Below, piece after piece: positions 9,574 to 17,494 of a stretch of DNA of 21,554 nucleotides. The position numbers and the translations under genes were made by a program. The notes under the pieces are model-generated. The model saw only the letters and a list, made by a program, of their open reading frames with translations, was not told the origin of the DNA and did no database searches. The DNA lies in IMG/VR virus record IMGVR_UViG_3300025010_000249, positions 1 through 21,554 of that record; one strand, 5' to 3'. How positions within the stretch are numbered: position 1 is the stretch's first letter; each line of letters begins with the position of its first letter. The stretch is from a virus.

Positions 9574-10299
9574 ATGATACTTAAAGATGGTAGTGAAACT
9601 CGCGATCCTCGTTGTGGCTTGATCTTTCAAGCTGATCCTACTGCGCCAAATCTTCTTGCAGTTCCTCCGATTGATGATGGTATTGACTTACGATATCGAG
9701 AACTAATTAGTAAATATCGAGTAAAGAAATTTAAAGAACCTTTGCTTAATCAGGATAAGTGGAGTGCTTGCGGTGGATTTGGATTTGCAGCATTTCTTGA
9801 GCATGAACCTGGAATAAGAACTCTTGGTGATGAATGGGCTCTTGAGTTTTATTTCAGGTGTCAAGATAATGATCAGTGGCCAGGGTCTGAGCGCCCTGGA
9901 TCAAAGCCAATTAGTTACGGAACTTCTCTTGCAGCAGTGATGCAGACTGCAAAGCAAGAAGGCTTGATTGAATCATATTGTCGAGCAAGCACAGTTGATG
10001 AAGTAATTCGTGGGATTGATTATTATGGTTCTGCCATACTTGGGCTAGAATGGACTGAGGGTATGATGTATCCTCGCGAAGTAGATGGACTGAGTACTCC
10101 TGGTGGAGAAGTAGTTGGTGGACACTGTACGGCTGGAACTTTTATTAATCTTCATCAAAACATTATCGGTGGTCCGAACTCATGGCCGGATTGGAACCTT
10201 TTGCGTAACGGCTATTGGGTGATGGATTTAGATGATTTTGCAGAAGTATTCATGAAACGTGGTGGTGAATGTGCGTTTGCAAGGAAGGCAATAGTATAA
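9574..10299 (+). CDS. Papain-like (C1 family) cysteine peptidase
   Basis: A 241-residue protein with a complete papain-type active site in the right order. Q60 (oxyanion) is six residues before C66 in NQDKWSACGGFGFAAF, as in papain. H184 lies in EVVGGHCTAGTF, and N202-S-W lies in GGPNSWPDWN, like the papain Asn-Ser-Trp. A SYGTSLAAVMQTAKQEGLI stretch (about 114-132) matches the usual helix after the catalytic domain's left half. There is no signal peptide. It lies between a membrane protein and the lysozyme, so it may act in lysis, in processing virion proteins, or inside the host after injection. The substrate is unknown. It is not a CHAP endolysin, since the motifs are of the C1 type. Confidence 0.75.
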   Translation: MILKDGSETRDPRCGLIFQADPTAPNLLAVPPIDDGIDLRYRELISKYRVKKFKEPLLNQDKWSACGGFGFAAFLEHEPGIRTLGDEWALEFYFRCQDNDQWPGSERPGSKPISYGTSLAAVMQTAKQEGLIESYCRASTVDEVIRGIDYYGSAILGLEWTEGMMYPREVDGLSTPGGEVVGGHCTAGTFINLHQNIIGGPNSWPDWNLLRNGYWVMDLDDFAEVFMKRGGECAFARKAIV

Positions 10300-10301
10300 G
10301 T

Positions 10302-10772
10302 ATGAAAGTTGATAATAAATTTTATGAATTTTTAACTTCTGTTGAGGGAAAATATAAACAAGTTTATCTTGATTCAGGTGGAGAGCCTACTATTGGTATT
10401 GGCCACTTGTTGACACTTTCTGAGCGTAGATCAGGCAAGATAATTATTGAAAAAACTGCAATAGAATATCGACACGGACTGACCGAACAACAGGTGATGG
10501 CTCTTTGTCTTCAGGATATTCGAGACGTGGTAAATGTAGTTAATCGAGTGGTCGTGGTGAGGATCTCGCAGAACCAATTCAATGCCTTGGTAAGCTTCGT
10601 TTTCAACATCGGTAATGAGGGGTTTAGGCAATCCACATTACTACGGTTACTTAATCAGGAGCGCTTCATTGATATTCCTACACAGATGCGTCGATGGAAA
10701 TATGATAATGGAAAAGTAGTTCAAGGTTTAATTAATCGACGAGAAAAAGAAATTCAATTATGGTTATCATAA
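10302..10772 (+). CDS. T4-type lysozyme, endolysin (GH24)
   Basis: A 156-residue endolysin that would hydrolyse the peptidoglycan glycan backbone. The frame is open from 10269, but ATG 10302, three bases after the previous stop, gives the usual N-terminus. The GH24 catalytic triad is present with the same spacing as T4 lysozyme: E15 (SVEGKYKQVYLD), D24 and T30 (GGEPTIGIGHLLT). The later QFNALVSFVFNIGNEGFRQS and INRREKEIQLWLS match the conserved helices of this family. There is no signal peptide or SAR-type span, so it would need a holin. The ribosome site is weak (GGAAGG at about 10284, long spacing). Length is normal for the family. Confidence 0.92.
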   Translation: MKVDNKFYEFLTSVEGKYKQVYLDSGGEPTIGIGHLLTLSERRSGKIIIEKTAIEYRHGLTEQQVMALCLQDIRDVVNVVNRVVVVRISQNQFNALVSFVFNIGNEGFRQSTLLRLLNQERFIDIPTQMRRWKYDNGKVVQGLINRREKEIQLWLS

Positions 10773-13411: not shown

Positions 13412-13852
13412 ATGGCAGCCTCAGCATTTGCAGTATTCCATACATTCAAGGCGAGGTTGGGGCAGAAACTCATTGACCTCGACACTGACGATATCAAGTG
13501 CGCTCTGGTTGCCTCAACCTGGACTCCGAACCTGGCCACGCAGGCTAATTGGGCCGATATCAGTGCCAATGAGATCACTGGTGATGGTTACACCGCTGGT
13601 GGTCTTGCGGTAACAAATGAATCTTTCACCGATGCAGCAGGCACGGTGACATGGGACTGTGACGACCCATCATGGACCGCAGGGGCTTCCGGTATCGCTG
13701 CAAGGTATTGTGTTTTCTATGATAATACTGACGCAAACAAGACCCTGATTTGCTACAGCCTTCTCGACACAACCCCGGCAGACCACAGTGTCACGACTGG
13801 CCAAGTTTTTTTGGTTACACTCCCCGCTACCGGGATTTTCCAACTGGCATAA
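13412..13852 (+). CDS. Phage tail structural protein
   Basis: A 146-residue protein, two bases after the previous stop. The pattern LIDLDTDDIKCALVASTWTP, then DGYTAGGLAVTNESFTDAAG, then a W-type strand and a final FLVTLPATGIFQLA is a layout I recall from a widespread family of small phage structural proteins (L-x-TD-x-K-x-x-LV, GYTAGG, GIFxL). It is all-beta with Trp residues at strand edges. It is richer in GC than the genes before and two genes after, and begins the second GC-rich stretch of the window. The exact place in the virion is not known; tail or receptor-binding assembly is likely from position. Confidence 0.7.
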   Translation: MAASAFAVFHTFKARLGQKLIDLDTDDIKCALVASTWTPNLATQANWADISANEITGDGYTAGGLAVTNESFTDAAGTVTWDCDDPSWTAGASGIAARYCVFYDNTDANKTLICYSLLDTTPADHSVTTGQVFLVTLPATGIFQLA

Positions 13853-14865
13853 AAAATGGCGATATCGTTTGTAGGTAGTGCTACTAATTCAGTAATTGAT
13901 GGGGGTGCGAGTTTTGATATCACTCTCCCGTCCTGCCTTGAAAATGACCTTGTTATAGTCGTTGTCGGTGGTGCTGGGCCAACTGATGTAGACCTCGGGG
14001 TTTCCACTTCCGGTTATGCTGAGATAGCAGACTTGTTCCAAACAGAGTTTGCGAGCATGAACTTCTCGGTCTCTTGGAAGAGGATGGGCGCAATCCCTGA
14101 CACGACTGTCACCTGTATCGGAAACAGCTATAGCAGTGCTGTTGGAACGGCAGGGATTGCATATGTTTTGAGGGGCGTGGACACTACTACAGCCCTTGAT
14201 GTTACTCCCACCACTGCCACGGCGGATAATAGTGCCATCCCAAATGGCCCTGCTATTACCCCTGTAACATTAGGTTCGCTTGTTGTCGTATGTGGTGGCA
14301 GTTCTCTTAGCGATGCAGCAGTTACAGTTCCATCTGGGTATGGGAACCACGTCTCCATAAATGTGGTCGACACCAATTCAGCAACCATTGCAGTAGCGAG
14401 TAAGGAATGGAACGGGACAGGGGCTGAAGATCCACCAGCTTGGACACTATGGTCTTCAAACACGCTTTCCGCATGGTGTGCAGTAACAATAGCACTTAGA
14501 CCCGTGATAGATACCAGTGTCACCATTCCGTCAGGAGAGATGTCGATATCAGGGACAACTCCTGCTATCGGATTGTCGCCGGTTTCTGGAGAACTTGCCA
14601 TAATTGGGGGTACTCCCGTCCCTGGTTTGGCTATCCCAGTATTCCCGGCAAGTGGAACAATTACAATTACAGGGGGAGCCCCATCTGTTTCCAACATCCC
14701 CATCGTTATGCCTCCCTCTGTCCAGATGCGGATAACTGGACAGACTCCGACGATTGAACAATTTATGGAAATTGCCGGGACGACGCCCAACATGCGGGGT
14801 TCGTTCATCTTTGCTGATACCATAGAGTTTTCCGGCAACACGGCGCAGATGCAGGGGGATTGGGC
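13430..14865. other. Second GC-rich stretch, ending inside a repeat array
   Basis: C/G-ending codons become frequent soon after 13412 and give way to T/A-ending codons around 14865. The right edge falls between repeats 6 and 7 of the G-x-T-P array in the gene at 13856. The change in style, seen by eye, suggests a swap, with the repeats themselves as a possible crossover site. The borders are estimates. Confidence 0.45.
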
Positions 14866-15475
14866 ATTTGTTTATCCTCATGATTTTGCTGGTGAGACTC
14901 CTGCAACAACTGGTATATTTGAATTTGGTGCAGAATTTTCAGGAGAAACGCCTGCATCTACTGGGGCGTTTGTTCTTGAGGAGATTCAGTATGCAGATTT
15001 CATGGGAAATACTCCGGTTATGCAGGGGGCATTTGAGTTTGGCGCTGAGTTCTCTGGCAAGACTCCAGTTATGCAAGGCTCGTTTGAGCTAGAAGAGGAA
15101 AACTGGGGATCGTTCTCTGGCAAGTCTCCAGCAATGTCTGGTAGTTTTGATATTGAACAAGCGATGGACTTTGCAGGTTTTTCTCCTGCAATGGAAGGGG
15201 CGTTCACAGGAGATATGGAACAGTATGGATCTTTCTCCGGTACGACTCCTGCAATGGATGGCTCGTTTGATTTTCTTGTCAGTGAGTTTTCATTTTCTGG
15301 ATTGACTCCTGAAATGGATGGAGCATTCGTTATTGGAGAAGAAACAACAATGGTTTTTTCTGGCAACACTCCACCATCCGTAGGTGAGTTCTTTATTGGA
15401 GTTGACTTGCCCACAGATTTTACTACAACCTCAGACGAAGTAATTAGGTATAGGCGCGGATATGACAACGGTTAA
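13856..15475 (+). CDS. Virion protein with N-terminal beta domain and about 15 G-x-T-P repeats
   Basis: A 539-residue protein. Residues 1 to ~225 form a beta-rich domain (MAISFVGSATNSVIDGG, ENDLVIVVVGGAG, TVPSGYG, WCAVTIALRP) that I recall from the start of other phage virion proteins. From about 226 to 518 comes a tandem array, with core F-(S/A)-G-x-(T/S)-P-x-M-x-G-(S/A)-F. Early copies (about residues 229-310) are longer and less regular; the last eleven are 18-21 residues each. The array ends in an Asp/Arg-rich tail. The start is only weakly marked by a ribosome site, four bases after the previous stop. It overlaps the next gene by 14 bases. It is probably a tail-surface or receptor-facing protein with a repetitive beta structure. 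Confidence 0.65.
   Translation: MAISFVGSATNSVIDGGASFDITLPSCLENDLVIVVVGGAGPTDVDLGVSTSGYAEIADLFQTEFASMNFSVSWKRMGAIPDTTVTCIGNSYSSAVGTAGIAYVLRGVDTTTALDVTPTTATADNSAIPNGPAITPVTLGSLVVVCGGSSLSDAAVTVPSGYGNHVSINVVDTNSATIAVASKEWNGTGAEDPPAWTLWSSNTLSAWCAVTIALRPVIDTSVTIPSGEMSISGTTPAIGLSPVSGELAIIGGTPVPGLAIPVFPASGTITITGGAPSVSNIPIVMPPSVQMRITGQTPTIEQFMEIAGTTPNMRGSFIFADTIEFSGNTAQMQGDWAFVYPHDFAGETPATTGIFEFGAEFSGETPASTGAFVLEEIQYADFMGNTPVMQGAFEFGAEFSGKTPVMQGSFELEEENWGSFSGKSPAMSGSFDIEQAMDFAGFSPAMEGAFTGDMEQYGSFSGTTPAMDGSFDFLVSEFSFSGLTPEMDGAFVIGEETTMVFSGNTPPSVGEFFIGVDLPTDFTTTSDEVIRYRRGYDNG
14531..15410 (+). repeat. Coding tandem repeats, about 15 degenerate copies of 54-66 bp
   Basis: In-frame copies inside the gene at 13856. 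Canonical examples are EFSGKTPVMQGSFELEEENW, GSFSGKSPAMSGSFDIEQA and GSFSGTTPAMDGSFDFLVS. The fixed points are an aromatic or aliphatic residue, Gly, Thr/Ser-Pro, often Met, Gly and Phe. DNA identity between copies is moderate, so they are old or kept by selection at protein level. Copy lengths vary in multiples of three. Confidence 0.85.
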
Positions 15476-15959
15476 AGTTAATCTTAAAAATGGTGCAGTC
15501 ACACAACATTCATATCCTGCTGCTTTCAATTCGTTCACGATGTTTGAAGGCAGACCATTAGGTGCAAGTCCAGATGGTATATTTACTCTGGATGGTGGGT
15601 TGAAGGATGTTTATACAACTACTTCGGATGAGAGGAACATTTCTGCTTGGTTTGAATTGGGACCAAGTCAACTAGGTGACGATCATGTGAAGCAGGGCAG
15701 AAGACTATATCTTGGTGGTGAATTTACTGGAAGTATGACAATCAAAGTAGATACTCCCAAGGCGTATGTTCCGACTATGACTTATACTGCAACACCAAGG
15801 GACACAACTCTTGTACAGCACACTCTTGAAGTTCCTATAAGCAGCAAGCAGAAAGATGAATATTGGAAGATTACTGTTGCTAATGTTTCAGGTTCTGATT
15901 TTTCGCTAGATTTTATTGATGGAATTTTTGTCCTGGTTAATCGTAGGCATGGTTTATGA
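15462..15959 (+). CDS. Conserved phage virion protein
   Basis: A 165-residue protein that begins 14 bases before the previous stop. The N-terminus (TVKVNLKNGAVTQHSYPAAF) sets a beta domain. The second half (RLYLGGEFTGSMTIKVDTPK, DTTLVQHTLEVPISSK, YWKITVANVSGSDFSLDFID) follows a pattern I recall in tail proteins of several phage groups: G-R-x-x-YLG, then a strand with K-V, then L-x-VPI-x-x-x-K-x-x-YW-x-I-x-x-ANVSGSDF. It overlaps the next gene by ATGA, implying coupling. It is AT-rich and lies between two GC-rich stretches, so it is likely part of the older phage backbone. A role in anchoring the surface proteins on either side is plausible. Confidence 0.65.
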   Translation: MTTVKVNLKNGAVTQHSYPAAFNSFTMFEGRPLGASPDGIFTLDGGLKDVYTTTSDERNISAWFELGPSQLGDDHVKQGRRLYLGGEFTGSMTIKVDTPKAYVPTMTYTATPRDTTLVQHTLEVPISSKQKDEYWKITVANVSGSDFSLDFIDGIFVLVNRRHGL

Positions 15960-17494
15960 ATAAGAACTGGGATGAAATTCGAGGTAAGGCTGAACAAGAA
16001 CAGAATGTTCCAACTAAGAACTTTACCCATGATGGCACTCAGTATGCTTTAACGGGTGATCACCAGCGCGCGCACTCCCATTTCCACGAAGCACGGGCAC
16101 ACCTGGGCAAGATGAAGATGGTCAACGTCAACAATCTACCCATCATCTCAGGTATCAAATATTTTGATGACGGATCGGTAGCGACTTTCAAGGTCGTGCA
16201 CGGCAAGGAAGATATTCACATCGTCTCACCAATGGCACAACTGGGCGGTGAAATTCCACCTGTACCAAAGAAAGGCGTTGATGAGATTGAACAGATTGTC
16301 CCGGTCATGCGGAGTGTTGACAATACACACTGGGTAGCATGTCTGTCAGGGACGTTTGAAGGACCGTACTATCATTTCCCCAATACATTTGAAATTCCCG
16401 CTGAGGCGTTTGGTGATAATATCGAAGTGGACCTTGACGGACAGCTTATCTCAATTGGCACGGCACCAATTGAGGACAGCATAACCGACCCGGAATTGTT
16501 CTTCATCGCTCAGACCGGCATAAGGCCGGACCTCGGAACAGGTGAGGCACTTACTGGCGATATCAGCGCGATCTATGACCCAAGGTACGATGCGAACAAT
16601 TACGGGGTCGTTGCTAATGTGTATTTCATAAGCCTTGTCGGAGATGAGATTCACTGCGAGATAGAATACTACCCGTGGTCGTACTATTCATACGATATAA
16701 GTTTTGAATATAACGATACATTTTATATTACAACTACAGTATGGGGTGAAATTCTTGCAATTCCAGAAAGAACTTTTTCCAGGAACACCACCTATGAAGG
16801 GGAAGGGGCATCTCAGTATAGTGTTCAGCCTACTTCTGAACTAAATTTCTGGGGGGAATACTACAGTCTCAGGGAATATTCCGTCCCGACTATTGTCAGT
16901 ACCAGCGTTGAGCGTGAAGCCGTTGCCAACTTTGCATGTTGCTATGCCCAGACCGAGATTGAATCAACGTCTCAACGAGATGCTGTTTCCGCCACTTGTG
17001 CAGAGAAGTATCGAGACGATCCCCCTCCTTATATTGAGAATACGGTGCGGCGAAAGCCTTATTACTTCCAGGTCAATGAGGACTCTTACAAATTCTATGA
17101 CACTCCTGAAAAAACAGATGATTTATCCTCATGGGAACTTGATGGATATCCCTACAGGTGGTCAGAATATCCTCCCGGTCAAATCTGCTACGTCGAAGAG
17201 AACATGCTCAAATACTACGGGCCTGAGAGTAGAGCACAAATCACCGGAATCATGTGTGGCAGAGTGGAGGACTCAGAGGTTGACGAAGAGTCTGGGGCGT
17301 ATATAAACCGCCAGTGCCTTGGCTTCTATTACAACTATGTCGGACCCCGGCATGATGGCATTAGCACCGTTTTATATATCCCAGAGGCAGGCCAATACGA
17401 GCATATCATCCCCAACGTCGAAGGCATTGACGACACAGTTCTATTCAAAGGTGAGATTTTCCTCGGCTTAATCAAATACGAGATAGAGGCATAA
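15956..17494 (+). CDS. Large unknown virion or receptor-facing protein with a His-rich N-terminus
   Basis: A 512-residue protein whose start overlaps the previous stop (ATGA). The first ~32 residues are in AT-rich DNA. From about residue 34 the DNA turns GC-rich, beginning with a His-rich stretch GDHQRAHSHFHEARAHLG (H36, 40, 42, 44, 49). The remainder is rich in Tyr, Glu, Asp and Trp (YYPWSYYSYDISFEYND), with beta-like blocks and scattered Cys (FACCYAQ, ICYVEE, IMCGRV, QCLGFYY). There is no signal peptide or enzyme motif I can name. The aromatic-acidic make-up would suit a surface protein that binds a host receptor or sugar. I do not recognise the family. Confidence 0.55.
   Translation: MNKNWDEIRGKAEQEQNVPTKNFTHDGTQYALTGDHQRAHSHFHEARAHLGKMKMVNVNNLPIISGIKYFDDGSVATFKVVHGKEDIHIVSPMAQLGGEIPPVPKKGVDEIEQIVPVMRSVDNTHWVACLSGTFEGPYYHFPNTFEIPAEAFGDNIEVDLDGQLISIGTAPIEDSITDPELFFIAQTGIRPDLGTGEALTGDISAIYDPRYDANNYGVVANVYFISLVGDEIHCEIEYYPWSYYSYDISFEYNDTFYITTTVWGEILAIPERTFSRNTTYEGEGASQYSVQPTSELNFWGEYYSLREYSVPTIVSTSVEREAVANFACCYAQTEIESTSQRDAVSATCAEKYRDDPPPYIENTVRRKPYYFQVNEDSYKFYDTPEKTDDLSSWELDGYPYRWSEYPPGQICYVEENMLKYYGPESRAQITGIMCGRVEDSEVDEESGAYINRQCLGFYYNYVGPRHDGISTVLYIPEAGQYEHIIPNVEGIDDTVLFKGEIFLGLIKYEIEA
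16040..17490. other. Third GC-rich stretch, within one gene
   Basis: Codon style turns GC-rich around 16050, soon after the start of the gene at 15956, and returns to AT-rich just after 17496. A short AT-rich patch lies inside at about 16680-16750. The left edge is in frame within a host-contact gene, as with the other two stretches. Confidence 0.45.

Follow-up and report, generated by a model that had tools for sequence, protein, structure and literature searches.

A fixed G-x-T-P repeat array carries exchanged N-terminal domains in a putative podovirus virion protein

The window analyzed here is the whole 21,554-nucleotide stretch of the IMG/VR virus record IMGVR_UViG_3300025010_000249. At 13856-15475 on the plus strand it contains a single ORF with an ATG start, which encodes a protein of 539 amino acids that we call the array protein. 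The array gene sits between head-closure and internal-virion-type genes, and F116-like podoviruses have homologs of both the head-closure gene and a 658-aa gene. Directly upstream lies a 146-aa gene of PHROG 644 (13412-13852, plus strand) and downstream follow genes for a 165-aa partner protein (15462-15959, plus strand) and a 512-aa protein (15956-17494, plus strand). The structural region also includes a Staphylococcal-nuclease-like gene (PF00565, 8207-8674) near the phage lysozyme gene at 10269-10772.

The 165-aa protein matches the C-terminal domain of the PHROG 26502 virion structural protein (profile residues 471-613, E = 1.5e-7; 1.7e-7 for the orthologue on the distant contig L018), a domain that the array gene itself lacks. 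The two genes overlap by 14 nt (15462-15475) in different frames, an arrangement conserved in close relatives and reduced to 4 nt in L018. A frameshift could join both as one product, which we note as a candidate only. An earlier note made from the DNA letters had called the array protein a virion protein; the gene context and the PHROG 26502 match of the downstream gene speak for this, and from them we infer its location on the particle.

Residues ~225-518, about 55% of the protein, are composed of 15 units with a G-x-T/S-P-like core. Core glycines are found at residues 233, 251, 273, 295, 308, 327, 346 and 363 (units 1-8) and 384, 401, 422, 441, 462, 482 and 503 (units 9-15), and two degenerate units carry GGAP and GNTA instead of the core. 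Exact G-x-[TS]-P occurs 14 times in residues 221-539, whereas 1000 shuffles gave 0.65 on average and never more than 4, and the best internal-repeat score of 157 exceeds the shuffle maximum of 49. The array of about 15 in-frame copies filling over half of the protein, as originally described, is thus far above chance. Self-similarity is strongest at lags of 38 and 21 aa because units tend to alternate between 17 and 21 aa. The repeat exists at the protein level: DNA copies of the units are ~60-86% alike and Tandem Repeats Finder detected no tandem repeat in the array DNA. Long antisense ORFs over the array (14128-14841 and 14986-15468, minus strand) have no support as genes and are probably by-products of the repeat composition.

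Two types of units can be distinguished. The first six (14531-14865, plus strand, glycines 233 to 327) include the proximal type P-S-x-G-x-h-x-I-T-G-x-T-P-x-V, with the first four being closer to I-[ST]-G-x-T-P-x-[IV] in the context P-S-x-G-x-h-x-I. The nine distal units (14866-15410, plus strand) follow F-S-G-x-T-P-x-M-x-G-x-F with a spacing of 17/21/17/21/19/21/20/21 aa. The core F-S-G-x-T-P-x-M-x-G-S-F that had been proposed for the entire array therefore describes the distal units but not the first four, which are built differently. A conserved C-terminal tail (15411-15475, plus strand, T-D-F-T-x-T-S-D-E-V-I-R-x-R-R) closes the protein and is present even in the distant L018.

The earlier note had further placed a switch in base composition near 14865. 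Its position holds, as GC3 within the array changes most clearly at 14864, but the signal is weak (permutation p = 0.04 for GC3 and p = 0.23 for total GC). GC content falls from 52.5% in the first six units to 44.4% in the remaining ones in the window, whereas most relatives show no drop or the opposite trend. L012, which equals the window in architecture and length, goes from 51.1 to 52.0%. GC content increases in L005 and stays level in L004 and L006, and L002 alone displays a drop like that of the window.

Structure prediction for the array by itself gave an all-beta, beta-helix-like model with two strands per unit and a mean pLDDT of 63. This low-confidence model superimposes on the HMW1 secretion domain, a parallel beta-helix, with Z 19.4 and an rmsd of 2.3 over 215 residues. 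Foldseek comparison of the model with the PDB and BFVD yielded nothing below E 0.001 (best E 0.04 or worse), and searching the PDB by sequence returned nothing meaningful. Shallow repeat alignments can yield spurious beta-helix-like models. For this reason, and because the full-length model failed (mean pLDDT 38.5, too poor to use), the beta-helix is regarded as a lead only. The repetitive beta structure suggested previously is accordingly plausible at low confidence.

Relatives of the array gene were found on nine IMG/VR contigs. IMG/VR supplied L002/L003, L004, L005, L006 and L012, while the deeper group L018-L020 was reached by searching with the 165-aa neighbor. A degenerate DNA pattern of two consecutive units, which matches every known member, was scanned against 2.9 million viral contigs and returned no further convincing member, the other matches being of low complexity or due to chance; the distal repeat thus has a narrow distribution. 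GTDB genomes searched with the partner gene and the array contained no relative.

Among close relatives the distal half of the protein is fixed. From a G-D-W-A-F motif to the stop it measures exactly 206 aa in six phages without any indel, and the spacing of 17, 21, 17, 21, 19, 21, 20 and 21 aa recurs in all six wherever the G-x-x-P core is intact. In each of L012, L006 and L005, every one of the nine distal units has its best match in the window unit that occupies the identical position. The dN/dS of the distal array (0.04-0.15, approximate because several dS values are near saturation) indicates purifying selection. The distant L018 homolog, 225 aa long, has eight units and retains the 17/21 register along with the C-terminal tail. 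Its units are not colinear with those of the window, and unit similarity is higher within each of the two phages (mean score 32-38) than between them (19), a pattern compatible with slow turnover of units or with constraints particular to each lineage.

These observations bear on the possibility of a contingency locus, in which slippage or unequal crossover would often alter the number of units. The repeats are in frame, the distant relative has fewer of them and units resemble each other most within a phage, all of which speaks for such a locus. However, no tandem repeat is found in the array DNA, six phages share one unit number and one spacing and positional matches are complete in the three tested, making this explanation highly improbable. 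The changing copy number that the earlier note suggested is not borne out in close relatives; fewer units occur only in L018.

The region upstream of the array behaves differently. The N-terminal domain (13856-14530, plus strand, residues 1 to ~220) is an exchanged cassette. In the window it is homologous to that of L012 (55% over 215 aa, z 54) and to a domain of the Microcystis phages Mae-JY04/JY28 (37%), where it precedes a different repeat. It matched no named binding domain, including PF00754 (F5/8 type C). The N-terminal domain of L002, on the other hand, is of the F5/8 type C (galactose-binding-like) kind (PF00754, E = 5.6e-9, above cut-off), and that of L005 finds matches both in a PHROG of the phosphodiesterase type and among minor tail proteins of Streptomyces phages. 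Both of these types are also seen in unrelated phages, as parts of minor tail or virion proteins. L004 and L006 have no large N-terminal domain and start with short N-termini that are 77% alike. Apart from the window and L012, all comparable pairs of N-terminal domains are at shuffle level (z -0.7 to 2.0). Yet the distal array is 95-96% identical among the window, L002 and L004, which have three different N-termini. The contigs with the N-terminal variants of L002, L004 and L005 share one IMG sample identifier, 3300025000.

DNA similarity of the window to L002 and L005 stops at 13852, where the upstream gene ends, while in L004 and L006 the upstream PHROG 644 gene is replaced too. Similarity resumes inside the array, on the plus strand between 14725 and 14822 (L002 at 14725, L004 at 14764, L006 at 14765 and L005 at 14822). 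Sequence comparison thus supports a recombination junction in this zone, and the swapping of N-terminal domains with a crossover within the array, which the earlier note had put forward, agrees with unrelated N-termini on near-identical arrays. That the repeats themselves promote the crossover is plausible from the position of the junction. A second variable cassette lies in the 512-aa gene, which is conserved at its ends but exchanged in the middle (about 16520-17400). Between phages the middle of this protein is about 10-35% identical and the flanks 70-95%; a link to H66 gp56 was not detectable.

Which end of the array protein would contact the host can be read in two directions. Tail fibers usually have a conserved N-terminal anchor and an exchanged C-terminus (PMC10386132). 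If the array protein had this normal polarity, its N-terminal domain would anchor it and the repeat array, a large, repetitive and probably exposed surface, would contact the receptor together with the C-terminal tail. The diversity gradient is opposite to this expectation: the C-terminal half is near-identical and under purifying selection, the tail is retained even in L018 and it is the N-terminus that is replaced or missing. We consider normal polarity unlikely. Somewhat less unlikely, though still improbable, is a role as a head or neck decoration or as an internal particle protein, with N-terminal domains that do not bind the host. The position of the gene next to head-closure and internal-virion-type genes and the PHROG label of the partner's relatives ("head and packaging, virion structural") would suit such a role, but the swapped domain types are known from minor tail proteins, and two exchanged cassettes lying close together are easier to reconcile with proteins that contact the host.

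Overall, we favor as the probable explanation a modular appendage on the virion of a podovirus related to F116/H66, consisting of a C-terminal stalk of beta-repeats that stays fixed and an N-terminal binding tip that can be exchanged. The distal array and tail, coupled to the 165-aa partner, would remain constant and dock on the particle, and the C-terminal half would form a stiff beta-repeat stalk. The N-terminal domain may act as a ligand-binding tip that is exchanged between phages by recombination, with one crossover inside the array and the other either where the gene begins or ahead of the PHROG 644 gene. Against this reading stand the lack of a named binding domain in the window's own N-terminus and the dispensability of the tip, as L004 and L006 are without a large N-terminal domain. 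A more far-reaching version is possible but tentative. Here the protein would be an adhesin of reversed polarity, whose partner-docked stalk with its fixed 17/21 register serves as a universal socket for unrelated N-terminal binders, in tandem with the second cassette. The locus offers a natural experiment, in that the tips differ between phages whose stalks are 95-96% identical. Should the tip prove to be the binder, the usual logic of fibers would be turned around by a conserved C-terminal stalk able to take up unrelated N-terminal domains, and the transfer of host-binding domains from phage to phage could be tested directly.

The closest known systems are proteins of F116-like podoviruses (H66 gp57, PHROG 12240 / 26502) and of phage ctwe8250, which resemble the window in neighborhood, in having a repeat array and in the PHROG 26502 C-terminal domain. 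H66 gp57 (L022:8508-9671) has its own D-x-A-x-x-S-D repeat array followed by the PHROG 26502 domain. In gp57 and ctwe8250 the repeat sequence is different and array and C-terminal domain form one polypeptide, whereas the window encodes them in two overlapping genes. When the 165-aa protein is compared directly with these two by profile, the similarity is weak, so the link to H66 gp57 runs through PHROG 26502. The H66 counterpart, gp57, is not one of the proteins that carry a mark of mass-spectrometric verification, which weighs against the appendage reading. F116-like phages are reported to have longer and suppler tail fibers than T7-like podoviruses (PMC5217972).

The array has no family match in Pfam, PHROGs or NCBIfam, in line with the initial impression that the repeat belongs to no named family, but its proximal units are similar to unnamed repeats found in minor tail proteins of mycobacteriophages (e.g. 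LunaStella gp22, PHROG 553; CCUG48898T-2 gp99). Their repeat, P-x-A-x-L-T-I-T-G-G-x-P, aligns with window residues 214-324 at ~30% identity (tblastn, E = 7e-4 to 9e-3), and an HMM of the distal unit (F-S-G-x-T-P-x-M-x-G-x-F) found no match in these proteins. The order also differs, as the mycobacteriophage proteins place the array first and a globular domain after it, while in the window the domain comes first. Sphingomonas phage Kimi WLJ71049 (L063:2495-4357) combines an F5/8-type-C-like N-terminal domain, short tandem repeats and a C-terminal part in one chain. Unlike the array gene, it is encoded after a tape-measure gene, which marks Kimi as a phage with a long tail, and its repeat S-G-L-V-L-E-A-H is unrelated to that of the window. 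Tandem BACON domains in tail-associated proteins of crAss-like phages evolve by duplication and transfer and have a possible role in host binding (PMC6949934); these are whole carbohydrate-binding domains, in contrast to the array units of 17-21 aa. Proteins of this kind are known. What sets the array protein apart is that the swapped end is opposite to that of a normal tail fiber, the N-terminus being exchanged and the C-terminus conserved.
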